Of a stretch of 40,289 nt of DNA, positions 22,327-30,404 are shown one piece after another. A program made the position numbers and the translations under genes. The notes below the pieces were generated by a model. The model did not search any database and had not been told where the DNA came from. It saw only the letters and a program-made list of their open reading frames with translations. Source of the stretch: Saprospiraceae bacterium (GTDB lineage Bacteria; Bacteroidota; Bacteroidia; Chitinophagales; Saprospiraceae); the NCBI GenBank assembly GCA_012031785.1, contig JAAUTG010000007.1, positions 1 through 40,289 on the forward strand. The letters run 5' to 3'. Within the stretch, counting starts at the first letter, position 1. Every line of letters starts with the position of its first letter.

Positions 22327-24393
22327 TTACTTGGATTTGATTAGTTTTAAAATCTGTAATACTTCATCTTCTGCACTTGCCTTCGCAAAGTATGTTCCTG
22401 CTGGCAAGTGTGTTGCGTTCCATCTAGCTTGGTGCAAGCCTTCTGATTGCTTACTATTTACTAACGTTGTAATCAATTTTCCATTTTGATCAAACACCTG
22501 CACGGTTACGTCCATTTCCTTTTCCAACTGGTAATTAATGGTCGTTTCCGTTTGGAATGGATTCGGATAGTTTACCATCATCACCTTACCCACGCTTTGT
22601 GCGCTCAAGCCCAAAACTGTATTGGAAGTAGGTGCAACTTTTGCTACACTTTGTTCACCAACAATTTCACCACTACACTTGCTCGTACCGCTCCAAGGAC
22701 GTTGCACGTAAGGGAAAAATCCTAAGAATGAAGTATCATAGCTTCTACACCAGTTGTGTAGGTCAATACATCCAACAAATCTTGTGTCACTGGACTAGCA
22801 CTAGTGGCAGGATCGAAATCATCGTACCACAAACCAATTGCCGCCAATACTACACCCGATACCGCTTGTAATTCAATGCGCGTCACATCATCTTCTAAAC
22901 GACGACCATTCGGAAAACCATCCATATTAGGAATGAATTGCAATTCAGCCGTTCGATTAAAACGTGGATCAGTTAAGCCCAATACGGCTGCTTGTATTAA
23001 ACCAAGTGAGCTAAAGTCTTTTGACCTACGCTTTGTGACAGGTACTGCCATATTTAAGCGCAGCATATCGCCGCCATTGGGTAAAAAGTTATTCACGAAT
23101 GGTTTACCTGCTGCCAATGGGTTGCCATTTTTACCTGTTGCCAATTGGTAAGGAGTCACATTTGGAACGCCTGTATGGAAAGCGGGCCACAAATCTACTG
23201 AACGTGGTTGACCTGGACCAGGCAATAAGAGAGTACCAAATACTGCATCGTCTAACGCTGTCCCTGCTACTGCTGCTGAACCTTTCAAGGCAAACAAGCC
23301 ATCTGCGCCATTCGTAAAGTCAAAAGCACCTAATGATTTTGTTTGTATGCGCAAAGGTGCAAAAGCAGGCACCGCAGAGCCAAATAAATCATCATCCATG
23401 TACAATGCCAATTCTGGATTGTAGAAAAACGGGTCTAAACTGGTGTCCGTAATTTCGTCATAAGGCGTAATTGCATTCCAATAGTCTTTGAATCCAATTG
23501 GAATAACTGCTTCATTTGTCAAAGGCATTCCCAAACGAGATACTTGTACCCAATCACCAGAGTAAGTTTCCTTACCTGCTTCCAAAGTACGAATTTGAGG
23601 ACGACTTGCAGAAGCCCAAACACCAATCACATAATCTGAATCTAAAATGTCACGCGGTTGTGCTGGCGCAGTTGCTTTTTTCAACAAATCAATAGATAAT
23701 TGAAGGGCAATCACACTGACGTTCTTACAAGCTACTCCGTCAATGGCGGCTCCGTTTTGACGTGGAGAATCACCTAAATCAAAAATACCGCCTAAATCTA
23801 CAAAGAAAGGATCATCAGCAGAACCTACCCACACGCGCTCTTGGCGAGTCGCAAAGCGAACTTCCTTGCGCGCTACGTTTTCGTAGTTTCCGATTCTCAA
23901 ACCTACTGGTGAATTGATGGAACGTGGACCAACATTATATGGTGTCACTCTTCCATTTGCAAGTATTGTACTAAAAGTGCGTCCACCATCCAAGCTGCGT
24001 TCTACGATATAGGTCGTCTTTTGGTTTTCCTTACCTAAACGCATTGGAAAGAAGGTTGTGGGGTCTTCATTTGTGATTTTGAACGTAAAACGATACACAA
24101 TTTCATCACCCGGTATGGAAGCATCGTTATCCACATGAATTTCATAGCGAACGTTCTCTCCAAAAGTGTAGTAATTCGGTCCACCATGCGGCAATTGCAA
24201 AGGCACATAAGTGGCAATGATAGTTACAAAATTAGGATTTTCTGGACTGCGAAAAGCATATAAATCCACATTATCAGCTAAAGGATCATCCGAAATAAGC
24301 GGTGCTTCTCTATGGCTGGAAGCGAACAGCGCGCCACAGATACTTACACTTAGTAGTGTCGCGGCAAAGTATTTTAATATTCTTTTTTTTCAT
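22327..24393 (-). CDS. DUF4331 secreted protein with T9SS type A sorting domain (two frameshifts)
   Basis: Merges track ORFs 22722-24269 and 22327-22707. The true start is ATG 24393: removing one A from the A8 run (24383-24390) gives MKKRILKYFAATLLSVSICG and an Ala-Ser-Ser-His-Arg-Glu-Ala-Pro mature start. Adding one T near 22740 joins TTGVEA to YDTSFLGFFPYVQRPWSGTS. The repaired length is about 688 aa. DUF4331 (about 27-555) carries SSHREAPLI, DLYAFRSPENPN, FFYNPELALYMDDDLFG and GLWYDDFDPATS. The last 80 residues (VNYPNPFQTETTINY ... LPAGTYFAKASA) are a T9SS C-terminal domain, so the product is exported by type IX secretion. DUF4331 function is unknown. It is a tandem paralogue of the gene at 24457. 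Confidence 0.88.
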
Positions 24394-24456: not shown

Positions 24457-26202
24457 TTAATTACCTGACTGATTCACATCTGTACCTCTCCAAGGCATCG
24501 CCAAATAAGGGAAAGTAGCTGTGAATGGTGCATCATTCTTATCCACTCCTGTGGAGTAAGTCAATACATCAATTAAATCCTGTGTTACGGGGCTTGTACT
24601 GGTTGCTGGGTCAAAATCATCGTACCACAAACCAATAGCCGCTAACACTACACCTGATACTGCTTGCAACTCAATACGAGTTACATCATCTTCCAAACGA
24701 CGACCATTTGGGAAGCCATCCATATTTGGAATGAACTGCAAATTAGTATTGGCATTGAAACGAGCATCCGTCAATCCTAACACTGCTGCCTGCACCAAGC
24801 CCAATGCGCTAAAATCTGGACTGTTGCGCGGGGTGACGGGTACCGCCATATTTAAGCGCAACATATCGCCACCATTAGGTAAAAAGTTATTCACAAAAGG
24901 CTTCCCGGCTGCTAATGGATTACCATTTTTGCCTGTTGCTAATTGATAAGGAATCACATTTGGAACACCTGTATGGAAAGCGGGCCACAAATCCACAGAG
25001 CGAGGCTGACCAGCTCCTGGTAACAATAAAGTACCAAAAACAGCATCATCCAAAGCTGTACCTGCTACTGCACTTGAACCTTTTAAACTGAACAAACCAT
25101 CTGCACCATTGCTAAAGTCAAAAGCACCTAATGATTTTGTCTGTACGCGCAAAGGGGCAAAAGCAGGCACCGCAGGTCCAAACAAATCATCATCCATGTA
25201 CAAAGCCAGTTCAGGGTTGTAAAAGAATGGGTCTAAAACAGTGTCTGTGATTTCCTCATAAGGTGTAATTCCATTCCAATAGTCTTTGAACCCAATCGGA
25301 ATCACTACTTCGTTTGTTAAAGGCATTCCTAATCGAGATACCTGTATCCAGCTTCCATTTTCGTCTGGTGTGCTTCCGTCTGTTTGCAACGTTTTGGTAG
25401 CTCTTCTGCTTGCGGAAGCCCAAATACCTATTACATAGTCTGCATCCAAAATGTCGCGTGGCTGAGCCGGCGCACCTGTCTTCAATAAAGTGCTGATAGG
25501 GACTTGAATGGCAATAGAATGCACATTGTATTTTGCTAAACCATCGCGGCTTGGACCGTTTTGACGTGGTAGATCCCCCAAATCAAAAGCACCACCTAAA
25601 TCTACATAGAAAGGGTCATCCGTCGGTCCGCAGAAAACGGTTTCTCCTGTGCTGGCATTGGTAATAGCATTTCTGAACAATTCCTCATAAGTAGTTCCTA
25701 ATCCTACACCAGATTCGATGGAACGTGCTCCGATGTTGTACGGTGGCACAATACCGTTCAACACGATAGGAATAAATAAATTTCCTCCATCCACACTACG
25801 CTCCAAAGTGTAAGTGGTCTTGATGTTCTGCAAGCCCAAGCGAATATTGAAGAAAGTAGATGGATCTTGGTTCTCCCGCTTGAAAGTAAACCGATAGACA
25901 ATTTCGTCGCCTGGTTTGCTGGCATCGTTGTCAATGTGAATTTCGTAGCGGATGTTCTCTCCAAATGAATAGTAATTCGGACCGCCAAAGGGCAACTGTG
26001 CTGGAATGTAGCTTGCGATAATCGTAATCATGTTTGGATTGTCTGGACTGCGAAACGCATACAAATCCGTGTTGTCCGCAAGTGGGTCATTGGCAATTAG
26101 TGGAGCCTCTCGGTGGCTGGAAGCCCAAGCACCGTTACTCATCACACCTAGCAAAGCCAACACCACCCATAAGCGGAAGTGCATACAAAGATAGAACTTC
26201 AT
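24457..26202 (-). CDS. DUF4331 secreted protein, paralogue without sorting domain
   Basis: 581 aa from ATG 26202 (MKFYLCMHFRLWVVLALLG). The track's longer start at 26280 adds 26 residues before a normal signal peptide and is unlikely. After cleavage at GAWA, the mature protein begins SSHREAPLIANDPLADNTDL. Its whole length parallels the neighbour at 22327; the part after VIPIGFKDYWN is nearly the same, while the middle (about 150-280) differs more. It ends at DVNQSGN with no T9SS C-terminal domain, so it should stay in the periplasm or leave by another route. The reading frame is intact. The 63-base gap to the next copy suggests co-transcription. Confidence 0.9.
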   Translation of the reverse strand: MKFYLCMHFRLWVVLALLGVMSNGAWASSHREAPLIANDPLADNTDLYAFRSPDNPNMITIIASYIPAQLPFGGPNYYSFGENIRYEIHIDNDASKPGDEIVYRFTFKRENQDPSTFFNIRLGLQNIKTTYTLERSVDGGNLFIPIVLNGIVPPYNIGARSIESGVGLGTTYEELFRNAITNASTGETVFCGPTDDPFYVDLGGAFDLGDLPRQNGPSRDGLAKYNVHSIAIQVPISTLLKTGAPAQPRDILDADYVIGIWASASRRATKTLQTDGSTPDENGSWIQVSRLGMPLTNEVVIPIGFKDYWNGITPYEEITDTVLDPFFYNPELALYMDDDLFGPAVPAFAPLRVQTKSLGAFDFSNGADGLFSLKGSSAVAGTALDDAVFGTLLLPGAGQPRSVDLWPAFHTGVPNVIPYQLATGKNGNPLAAGKPFVNNFLPNGGDMLRLNMAVPVTPRNSPDFSALGLVQAAVLGLTDARFNANTNLQFIPNMDGFPNGRRLEDDVTRIELQAVSGVVLAAIGLWYDDFDPATSTSPVTQDLIDVLTYSTGVDKNDAPFTATFPYLAMPWRGTDVNQSGN

Positions 26203-26614
26203 AATAAGAATAAATTTGGTTAAAAAAATAAAGCACTCTGTTGGATTTTGGAGGTAACACTTTGGTGCTTGCTTTTTCAAGCTATCGCACTGTATCTGTT
26301 TTAGTAAGAAAGTGAGCGTGATTCACACTTATTGAGCATTTACGAAATGGAAGGTGAGTTTGGATTTTTGATTAAGGCAGTTTTTTTATTTCTCTTTCAG
26401 TTTTTTGTATTGTGTAGGGAAAAGAACCAAATACATAGCAAATAGAGTATCTGGCTTTGCTTGACTTCATGAGCCAAGTAAGCGTTACAAAAGTGATTAG
26501 CGTAAGAGACAAATGAGTTAACAATTTTCGTCTGCAACTCATTCATTATCAGACAATAAACTGATAACCTATCACCTACAATTTACAAATCACTGCTGAA
26601 ATATCTTATTTGTT
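26203..26614. other. 412-base intergenic region
   Basis: AT-rich DNA between the PorT-like gene and the first DUF4331 gene, both on the minus strand. I see no supported ORF, hairpin with T tract, or clear TAnnTTTG box here. It presumably contains the promoter of the DUF4331-TPR run. Confidence 0.35.
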
Positions 26615-27651: not shown

Positions 27652-28572
27652 TTAAATCAGAAATAATAAAATAAGTCCTGTCAACATAATGAATTTGGCA
27701 ATGGTGCTTAACTGATGAAACGCTTGGTCACTTTGAGCTTGTTGCAGCTTGAAAAAAGAGTAGAGCAACGGAGCTACAATTGCAAGCAGAACGAATAATA
27801 GTGCAATATAAGATTGTTTTTCAATAAGTTGAACAGCAGAAATAAAAAGAAAAAAGAGTAACCCCATGCCACAAATAAATGCAACCCATTTTGAGATGGT
27901 TACGCCGTATAAAATAGGTAAGGTCTTACAAAAATAAACACGATCACCTTCTCGGTCTTCTATATCCTTAATTATTTCGCGGTACATAGTGGAAAGAAAG
28001 GCAAATATTAAGTAAAGGGAAAGCAAAAACTGCAAGTGCGACCCATCCAAAGCGTTTTGTCGCATCAAATCAGCAAAAGTATAACGCTCTGCAAACCAAA
28101 CGATACCAGCTACAAATGCACAAAACAATGCGACGATGACATTTCCGATAATGACACGCTGTTTAAAAAACTTTGAATATAAAAAAAGCAAGACTACTGC
28201 GCTTGGATAAAGCAGCAAGAGTGGTAGATTTTTTACATAGATTGCCAAGTATAATGAAATGATAAATCCAATCAAAGTCAACGTACCATAACACCAATAA
28301 GCGGTCGTTATAGGTATTTGCTGATTGATAATGACTTTGTCAGGCTTATTAATTTGGTCAATAGGATAATCCAAAATATCATTGATAATATAGCCACCTG
28401 CTGCAATGATGACCGTGGAAAGCACGAGCAAAGAAAAATGAAGTACGTCCAAATCAGGTGTGATTAAGTTGCGCTCAAAAATAGGCACCAGCAGTAAGTA
28501 CTGTAATAAATACTGCGTTATAACCACGATTAGTAAATTGGGAAAACGTGTCAAACGAAGGAAAGCGATCAT
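27652..28572 (-). CDS. UbiA-family prenyltransferase
   Basis: Integral membrane enzyme, 306 aa, about eight to nine hydrophobic helices. The two metal-diphosphate motifs are present: NDILDYPID (64-72, NDxxDxxxD) and DIEDREGD (203-210). The family moves prenyl groups onto aromatic rings or glycerol phosphate. The closest Bacteroidota group is usually annotated as geranylgeranylglycerol-phosphate geranylgeranyltransferase. MenA-type activity (menaquinone) is an alternative, worth noting because mqnA and mqnE are in the window. Substrate is not decidable from sequence. Its upstream region holds the tandem leader/terminator units described below. Confidence 0.85.
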   Translation of the reverse strand: MIAFLRLTRFPNLLIVVITQYLLQYLLLVPIFERNLITPDLDVLHFSLLVLSTVIIAAGGYIINDILDYPIDQINKPDKVIINQQIPITTAYWCYGTLTLIGFIISLYLAIYVKNLPLLLLYPSAVVLLFLYSKFFKQRVIIGNVIVALFCAFVAGIVWFAERYTFADLMRQNALDGSHLQFLLSLYLIFAFLSTMYREIIKDIEDREGDRVYFCKTLPILYGVTISKWVAFICGMGLLFFLFISAVQLIEKQSYIALLFVLLAIVAPLLYSFFKLQQAQSDQAFHQLSTIAKFIMLTGLILLFLI

Positions 28573-28643: not shown

Positions 28644-28718
28644 TTACAAATGAGCAGAAAAAAAATTGCCTCGCTTTTTCAAGCAGAGGCAACGTACACA
28701 CACTATGAGAACACCCAT
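28644..28718 (-). CDS. Leader-type small ORF b (24 aa)
   Basis: ATG at 28718 encodes MGVLIVCVRCLCLKKRGNFF+SAHL. The first 22 bases are identical to ORF a. Its codons run through terminator 2. Rich in Val, Leu, Ile and Cys. It may be a leader peptide or an RNA element with a chance ORF. Confidence 0.4.
   Translation of the reverse strand: MGVLIVCVRCLCLKKRGNFFSAHL
28658..28692 (-). terminator. Intrinsic terminator 2, upstream of the UbiA gene
   Basis: Minus strand: TTGCCTCTGCTT pairs with AAGCGAGGCAA (one bulged T) across a GAAA loop, then T8. A textbook intrinsic terminator placed 86 bases before the UbiA start codon on the same strand. Confidence 0.85.
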
Positions 28719-28766
28719 TATTAATTCTTGTAGCTCGTAGATTACTTTAGGGTCATCTAATTGAGA

Positions 28767-28786
28767 AAAAACTTAATTAAGTTTTT
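28767..28786. repeat. Perfect 20-base palindrome
   Basis: AAAAACTTAATTAAGTTTTT, directly after terminator 1 on the minus strand. It could be a protein-binding site or an AT hairpin extending the terminator. Confidence 0.6.
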
Positions 28787-28818
28787 AAAAGCTACCCCAC
28801 GTTGTTGCCAACGCAGGG
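28787..28818 (-). terminator. Intrinsic terminator 1, GCAA tetraloop
   Basis: Minus strand: CCCTGCGTTG pairs with CAACGTGGGG (10 pairs, two G-U) across a GCAA loop, followed by TAGCTTTT. It overlaps the end of ORF a. Confidence 0.75.
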
Positions 28819-28845
28819 CAGTCCACACACTATGAGAACACCCAT
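28792..28845 (-). CDS. Leader-type small ORF a (17 aa)
   Basis: ATG at 28845 encodes MGVLIVCGLPCVGNNVG and stops inside the descending arm of terminator 1. The first seven codons equal those of ORF b. Placement of the ORF over the hairpin would let ribosomes influence termination. Confidence 0.4.
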   Translation of the reverse strand: MGVLIVCGLPCVGNNVG

Positions 28846-28856
28846 TTTAATCGTGA

Positions 28857-28872
28857 CGCTGACGAATCAGCG
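28857..28872 (-). promoter_or_regulatory. UUCG-loop hairpin in the leader
   Basis: Minus strand CGCTGA-TTCG-TCAGCG, six perfect pairs with a UUCG loop, 12 bases before ORF a. Confidence 0.55.
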
Positions 28873-28909
28873 AACATTCGTTTTTCTGCAATTACTTCTT
28901 TTTGACGCG

Positions 28910-28938
28910 CAAATATAGAAAAGTATCAAAGTCACAAA
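28910..28938 (-). promoter_or_regulatory. Promoter for the tandem leader units
   Basis: Minus strand TTTG, 17 bases, then TATATTTG. This fits the Bacteroidota -33/-7 consensus (TTTG and TAnnTTTG, usual gap about 19) and would start RNA about 60 bases before ORF a. Confidence 0.55.
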
Positions 28939-29474: not shown

Positions 29475-30404
29475 ATGAAAAACAAATTTTTATTACTGTT
29501 TATCAGCGTATTGTTCTTATCGTCTTGTGTAAGCAAGAAAAGTTTTTTATCCAAGCAAGCAGAATTAGATGCCTTTCGCGTGGAGTGTGAGGAGCGTGCA
29601 GCTTCTATCACCTCTGAAAATGAGCGGTTGAAGCGCGAAAAAATAGCTCTAGAAGCTGAAATTCGTCGCTTAGAAAGCGAATTAGCAGTAGCGAGAACTG
29701 CCTTTCAGAGTGAGCAAAGTAAGACTAAAACCCTTGAATCTCAGGTGAATGATTTGCGTGGCACAAACGCTAGTTTGCTAGACCGTTTGGCGGATCTTTC
29801 AGTAGTGAGTCAAACTGGTGCAGAAAGCATCAAAAACTCTTTAGCTGCGATTAGTCAACAAAATAAGTATATTCAAGACTTGACTTCTACCATTCAACGC
29901 AAAGATTCAGTTAATCTCAATTTGGTGATGAATCTAAAACGTTCCTTAGCTGACGTGAACGACGAGGATGTGACCGTAGAGGTGAAAAAAGGAGTAGTGT
30001 ATATCTCGTTGTCCGACAAGATGTTGTTTAAATCGGGTAGTGCCGAGATTAGCCCTTCAGCAGATGGCATATTGGCTAAAATTGCAAAAGTGGTGAATGA
30101 CCATGCGGAGTTAGATATTTTAGTGGAAGGCCACACTGACAATGTACCTATCAAAACGGCGAGTATCAAAGATAATTGGGACTTGAGCGCTTTGCGAGCT
30201 ACCGCAGTGGTGCGTATGTTGCAAAGCAAGTACAACGTGAAGCCTGAACGCATGACTGCTGGCGGACGTTCAGAGTTCGTACCTAAAGTGTCGAACGATT
30301 CTGTAAAAAACAAAGCCATTAATCGTAGAACTGAAATTGTGATTTTACCAAAGCTAGACCAGTTTTTTCAGTTAGCTGCACCAAGCACGAAGGAAGGAAA
30401 ATAA
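29475..30404 (+). CDS. OmpA-family lipoprotein with coiled coil
   Basis: 309 aa. Signal peptide and lipobox LFLSSC (Cys18). Residues about 30-105 form a charged coiled coil (ENERLKREKIALEAEIRRLESEL). The OmpA C-terminal peptidoglycan-binding domain spans about 175-290: DKMLFKSGSAEISPSADGIL, ILVEGHTDNVPI with the peptidoglycan-contact Asp, LSALRATAVVRML with Arg, and NRRTEIVI. It tethers the outer membrane to the wall. It has its own terminator-like hairpin. The reading frame is intact. Confidence 0.92.
   Translation: MKNKFLLLFISVLFLSSCVSKKSFLSKQAELDAFRVECEERAASITSENERLKREKIALEAEIRRLESELAVARTAFQSEQSKTKTLESQVNDLRGTNASLLDRLADLSVVSQTGAESIKNSLAAISQQNKYIQDLTSTIQRKDSVNLNLVMNLKRSLADVNDEDVTVEVKKGVVYISLSDKMLFKSGSAEISPSADGILAKIAKVVNDHAELDILVEGHTDNVPIKTASIKDNWDLSALRATAVVRMLQSKYNVKPERMTAGGRSEFVPKVSNDSVKNKAINRRTEIVILPKLDQFFQLAAPSTKEGK

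Follow-up and report, generated by a model that had tools for sequence, protein, structure and literature searches.

The locus considered here raises the question of why two identical short sequences stand on the minus strand of a Saprospiraceae contig, each followed by a hairpin of its own. We analysed a 40,289-nucleotide stretch of contig JAAUTG010000007.1 (hereafter the window) and compared it with related genomes. Judging from this comparison, the window repeats most likely form the conserved front portion of a small RNA that had not been described before. It is likely a free-standing, lineage-specific, multicopy small noncoding RNA that is particular to Saprospiraceae and present here as a tandem pair, and not a switch for the neighboring UbiA gene.

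The repeat is an exact 22-mer, ATGGGTGTTCTCATAGTGTGTG, found at 28824-28845 and 28697-28718 of the minus strand, 127 bases apart. Such a pair is not expected by chance (expectation 0.00; 0 of 100 dinucleotide shuffles), and a search of the genome from which the window comes (G000) found no third copy. The initial annotation had pointed to these identical heads, each with its own differing hairpin and T-run, and to a UUCG hairpin ahead of the units, and all of these are borne out (Table 1). The GC-rich hairpins themselves were placed at 28791-28822 and 28666-28693, and the AT-rich hairpin 3' of the first at 28768-28787. The 267-nt stretch with both units folds more stably than 200 of 200 shuffles (z = -4.3). 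Neither terminator was reported by the terminator scan of the window, probably because of that scan's simple rules. The promoter-like site that had also been described is present; however, the sigma-70 patterns of the scan are no more frequent than chance, and assignment of the site is ambiguous. Elsewhere in the window, two adjacent related genes on the minus strand (22722-24269 and 24457-26280, the second including ASSHREAPLIANDPLADNTDLYAFRSPDNPN) share near-identical stretches and are probably a tandem duplication.

Table 1. Positions of features in the window and of the related loci discussed in the text.
Feature	Position	Strand	Basis or remark
Candidate promoter ATACTTTTCTATATTTGCGCGTC (ECF-like AC-N-CGTC)	28904..28926	-	Motif scan against shuffles, 93 loci; assignment ambiguous
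TATATTTG, Bacteroidota -7 like	28910-28917	-	Overlapped by ECF-like ATAC-N-CGTC site 28904-28926
5' leader hairpin, UUCG loop (CGCTGA-TTCG-TCAGCG)	28857..28872	-	Fold
A/U-rich linker 5' of head 1	28843..28854	-	Positional composition, 116 units: A/T-rich at -12 to -1
Conserved head, unit 1, GGTGTTCTCATAGTGTG	28826..28842	-	Repeat; near-invariance over 73 aligned units
Terminator hairpin 1, GC-rich, T-run only TTTT	about 28787..28823	-	Fold z = -3.2; stem covaries across units
AT-rich hairpin after terminator 1, longer T-run	about 28766..28787	-	Fold
Conserved head, unit 2, GGTGTTCTCATAGTGTG	28699..28715	-	Repeat; near-invariance in aligned units; covariance-model match
Terminator hairpin 2, GC-rich, 8-T run	about 28658..28693	-	Fold z = -2.7
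UbiA-family prenyltransferase	27652..28572	-	Pfam PF01040, E 3.7e-32
OmpA-family protein, divergent neighbor on 5' side, outside the element	29475..30404	+	Pfam PF00691
Viral unit	L256:5729-5790	+	Just past tail-fibre module, within tail and baseplate module
Viral unit	L258:2131-2190	+	Contig has DNA methyltransferase matches
Viral unit	L261:4306-4360	+	Contig with Mu-like transposition genes
Sigma54-like loci	L038, L039, L044, L048-L050, L059, L084, L085, L087, L088, L092-L094		
ECF-like loci	L052, L054, L055, L057, L058, L064, L066, L104, L119, L120, L123		
GGATATGTTCATGGGATTATAATTTGTT loci	L411-L433, e.g. L419:1384-1620	-	
GGATATGTTCATGGGATTATAATTTGTT locus, further example	L415:1500-1930	+	
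GGATATGTTCATGGGATTATAATTTGTT in own genome	G000:C231:8051 and C388:375		

The initial annotation proposed a search for the head with a terminator 3' of it in Bacteroidota genomes. We searched 199 Saprospiraceae genomes for the head, allowing up to three mismatches, and listed units from the surroundings (up to 8 kb) of some 95 head sites. The head, GGTGTTCTCATAGTGTG, is present in 95 of the 199 genomes, compared with roughly 22 for a reversed control pattern. Units occur singly or as tandem arrays of two to five, giving 1-5 copies per locus. Among 73 diverse aligned units, 13 of the 17 head columns are fully identical. The hairpin and T-run 3' of the head are strong, yet their sequence differs by clade and by copy. 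Selection on the head, as first proposed from the window alone, is well supported. Window unit 2 scores 52.3 bits (E 2.6e-9) against the covariance model, with the window units being part of that model's training set.

Terminators of family units have a mean energy of -21.6 kcal/mol versus -10.0 in shuffles. RNAalifold on a MAFFT alignment of the units detected no stem because the terminators are unalignable between units. Covariation was instead counted on a stated stem, and the outer terminator stem exceeds both shuffles and slid registers in percentage paired and in covariation score. Note that units share a phylogeny and are not independent, and the shuffle P values therefore overstate significance. 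A variable short hairpin is often found 5' of the head (90 of 115 leaders are more stable than shuffles), with an A-rich linker between it and the head (116 units compared). T-runs average 5.2 in internal units, 6.6 in last units, and 6.3 in single units, and the shorter internal runs would fit read-through from one shared promoter. One of the two options in the initial annotation was a small-RNA locus having two 3' ends, and this option is well supported.

In each unit, a variable 5' hairpin and an A-rich linker precede the invariant 17-nt head GGUGUUCUCAUAGUGUG, which an intrinsic terminator follows. The RNA is predicted to be transcribed from its own promoter. Its head would be a trans-acting, single-stranded seed for imperfect pairing with mRNAs, possibly across start codons as in Bacteroides FopS, or would be held by an RNA-binding protein. 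Tandem copies may serve to raise dosage, or may yield transcripts of various lengths via read-through of internal terminators. In folds, the openness of the head barely exceeds that of shuffled heads (0.45 versus 0.43). Among the few substitutions within the head, some clades have C to T at positions 7 and 9. These would keep pairing to G and are a weak hint of base pairing.

The search for targets gave negative or at best borderline results. Across 30 carrier genomes, perfect 12-nt complements of the head center outside heads were no commoner than those of a reversed control, and complements of the other two head 12-mers lying outside heads included no recurring gene. The reverse complement of the head, CACACTATGAGAACACC, includes a start codon. 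The best head duplexes in one genome (G006) fall at the starts of genes that resemble, by eye, lipoprotein or secreted-protein genes, and in a duplex-energy test with 100 flank-shuffled controls the mean of the six best reached the top 4, which is borderline. The start-codon signal was absent in a replicate (G062; 400 kb, 249 genes) and in neighbor genes. Among about 14 non-head complements, five are start codons of secreted-protein-like genes (by eye; P = 0.02-0.13, heads excluded from the baseline). We rejected a strong start-region match in L090/L198 as a chance head-like sequence within homologous DNA that has no unit. Start-codon targeting may be regarded as a lead.

The missing complement is equally compatible with a protein-binding role, and the partner of the head could instead be an RNA-binding protein that holds it. 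In its full form, this alternative makes the head a protein-binding site through which the tandem RNA would titrate such a protein or carry it, acting as a sponge of the CsrB kind or as a ligand for an RRM protein, with no mRNA pairing. Near-absolute conservation of 17 nt for which no conserved complement was found in 30 genomes speaks for it, as does repetition of the motif within one locus, and the weaker internal terminators could yield one long multi-site RNA. However, many genomes have a single unit only, the head is placed in no specific conserved hairpin loop across units, and no candidate binding protein was identified. We regard an exclusively protein-binding head as unlikely, while continuing to favor a small RNA whose head would pair with mRNAs or be held by a protein.

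Gene neighborhood bears on the remaining alternatives. The other option in the initial annotation was a double ribosome-controlled transcription attenuator, in which leader peptides (MGVLIVC...) would control UbiA in cis. Both window copies do start with ATG, their open reading frames overlap the terminators, and the UbiA gene is on the same strand, starting about 85 bases past the final T-run. However, among 116 units the triplet before the head is ATG in 52, TTG in 25, TAG in 22, and others (GAT, TAA etc.) in 17. ATG is thus replaced in 64 of them, and a stop triplet (TAG or TAA) lies immediately 5' of the head in 26. The ATG-initiated frames end at 6-73 codons with no conserved peptide tail, and the common peptide MGVLIVC, on this comparison, merely mirrors conserved nucleotides. 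The gene 3' of the array belongs to 51 different clusters among 83 loci and is antisense in 54 of these, and no other array examined had a relative of the window's UbiA, OmpA, or beta-barrel genes next to it. We therefore rejected both the leader-peptide reading and attenuation of UbiA. With neither a conserved open reading frame nor a conserved same-strand 3' gene, leader-peptide attenuation is untenable as a general explanation, and a double attenuator is very improbable here. The UbiA gene is an incidental 3' neighbor outside the element.

On the 5' side, the next gene is dnaG (identified as DnaG by a TIGR01391 match), divergently transcribed, in 57 of 89 loci. Because the array is divergent from dnaG, the RNA cannot be the 3' untranslated region of the upstream gene there. 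The dnaG-adjacent site is the common position of the array and perhaps the ancestral one; the array adjoins dnaG in one congener (G067) and lies away from it in this window and in another congener (G160). By layout, the array is an independent intergenic unit, divergent from dnaG and closed by an intrinsic terminator, with a candidate promoter assigned by motif. The array's conserved placement next to dnaG at most loci could point to a DNA-level element (a transcription-factor site or a replication-linked site) with an incidental terminator, a reading made highly doubtful by the fixed, strand-specific order of head, hairpin, and T-run and by conservation in arrays away from dnaG, this window included, and in viral contigs. 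Comparison across genomes shows that the family exists, that its units have this architecture, that it is independent of the 3' gene, and that no open reading frame is conserved in it; any doubt left would concern whether the units are transcribed and how they work.

We scanned for promoter motifs 5' of the first heads in 93 loci, with shuffles for comparison. Sigma54-like TGGCAY-N-TTGC was found 7 times versus 0.1 in shuffles, ECF-like AAC-N16/17-CGTC 10 times versus 1.2, and a Bacteroidota -33/-7-like motif 9 times versus 1.3. Different groups of loci appear to place the same RNA under different promoter-like motifs. rpoN was detected in 75 of 78 unit-bearing genomes; being present in nearly all carriers, it does not discriminate for sigma54.

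The family is narrowly distributed. In named contigs, the exact 17-mer occurs almost only in Saprospiraceae, including cultured Neolewinella, Lewinella, Phaeodactylibacter, and Flavilitoribacter. Matches outside the family (Clostridia, Pseudomonas, Elusimicrobium etc.) are few and at chance level for a 17-mer in 257 Gb. Neither a sample across the phylum nor an order-level search with the covariance model gave anything convincing beyond Saprospiraceae; both yielded chance matches only. The inspected family genomes without the head, and those of other families, have other sequence 5' of dnaG and no divergent head there. Furthermore, three unrelated viral contig sets from IMG/VR (L256/L260, L258, and L261), likely from viruses of Saprospiraceae, have the head with a hairpin, although no structural phage match was found on the L258 contig. 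In viral contigs matched only by a wobble pattern, no similar terminator lies close to the head, and these matches are probably due to chance.

The unit matched no Rfam family at the gathering threshold. The nearest described kind is the multicopy small RNA in which a terminator follows a conserved 5' seed, represented in Bacteroidota by FopS (PMC11697453). That paper describes FopS as a multicopy, lineage-restricted family of Bacteroides thetaiotaomicron with a related sequence reported in a phage, and states that its covariance model was deposited in Rfam (PMC11697453). On that description, the two families are alike in being multicopy, lineage-restricted, from Bacteroidota, and in having related sequence in viral DNA. 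The Saprospiraceae units also share with FopS and GibS a conserved 5' part followed by a terminator, in multiple copies. A small RNA of the FopS/GibS kind would be expected to pair over the start codons of mRNAs from outer-membrane or PUL genes and to be bound by the RRM protein RbpB; for the units, start-codon pairing was borderline in G006 and absent in G062 and in neighbor genes. In contrast to this likeness, the units gave no FopS-type match up to E 10, where presence of the FopS model in the Rfam copy rests on the paper's deposition statement, and their frequent tandem layout at a dnaG-linked locus is not part of the FopS description in the accessible text. MasB/BTnc201 (PMC10994844, Rfam RF04177) is likewise a Bacteroidota small RNA gene of about 100 nt; however, the unit scores 18.7 bits against its gathering threshold of 105 (E 1.2), which is chance level. 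Listeria LhrC1-7 is named as a paralogous small RNA set in PMC11697453. Like that set, the Saprospiraceae units place several near-identical seeds within one genome; they have no known sequence relation to it, and in them a nearly unchanging head is joined to terminators that are completely divergent. Paralogous small RNA sets such as LhrC1-7 may also be arranged in tandem.

Close inspection of four loci revealed a second tandem head-plus-terminator family, with head GGATATGTTCATGGGATTATAATTTGTT. Of 112 Saprospiraceae genomes, 92 contain its core, at 1-9 exact copies each, and 2 contain a reversed control. Copies are spaced at about 115-330 nt; a hairpin usually comes after each, and the hairpins differ. 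In a class-wide sample, GGATATGTTCATGGGATTATAATTTGTT is confined to Saprospiraceae except for two single-mismatch matches, and an Rfam search gave no match for this family. At five loci (L065, L067, L121, L130, and L242), a unit resembling the first head lies antisense to a unit of the second, with one hairpin common to both strands. A transcript of the second head would therefore carry a near-complement of the first and could possibly be an anti-sRNA or sponge. A broader conjecture, which we hold to be quite unlikely, is that Saprospiraceae have a distinct regulatory layer of at least two unrelated tandem head-plus-terminator RNA families, also borne by viruses. Interchangeable terminators, leaky internally, would yield a ladder of RNAs from one promoter, and the invariant head would bind one shared partner, either a protein or some core RNA, rather than individual mRNAs.

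Saprospiraceae are abundant in activated sludge and in the sea, and our literature searches found no small-RNA work on them. The likely small RNA described here, together with the second family, provides two conserved, clearly bounded RNA families in multiple copies, some of them phage-borne, in a group for which cultured type strains are available (Neolewinella, Phaeodactylibacter, Lewinella cohaerens, and Flavilitoribacter). The near-constancy of a 17-nt putative seed against the turnover of promoter-like motifs and terminators is a natural experiment on small RNA constraint.
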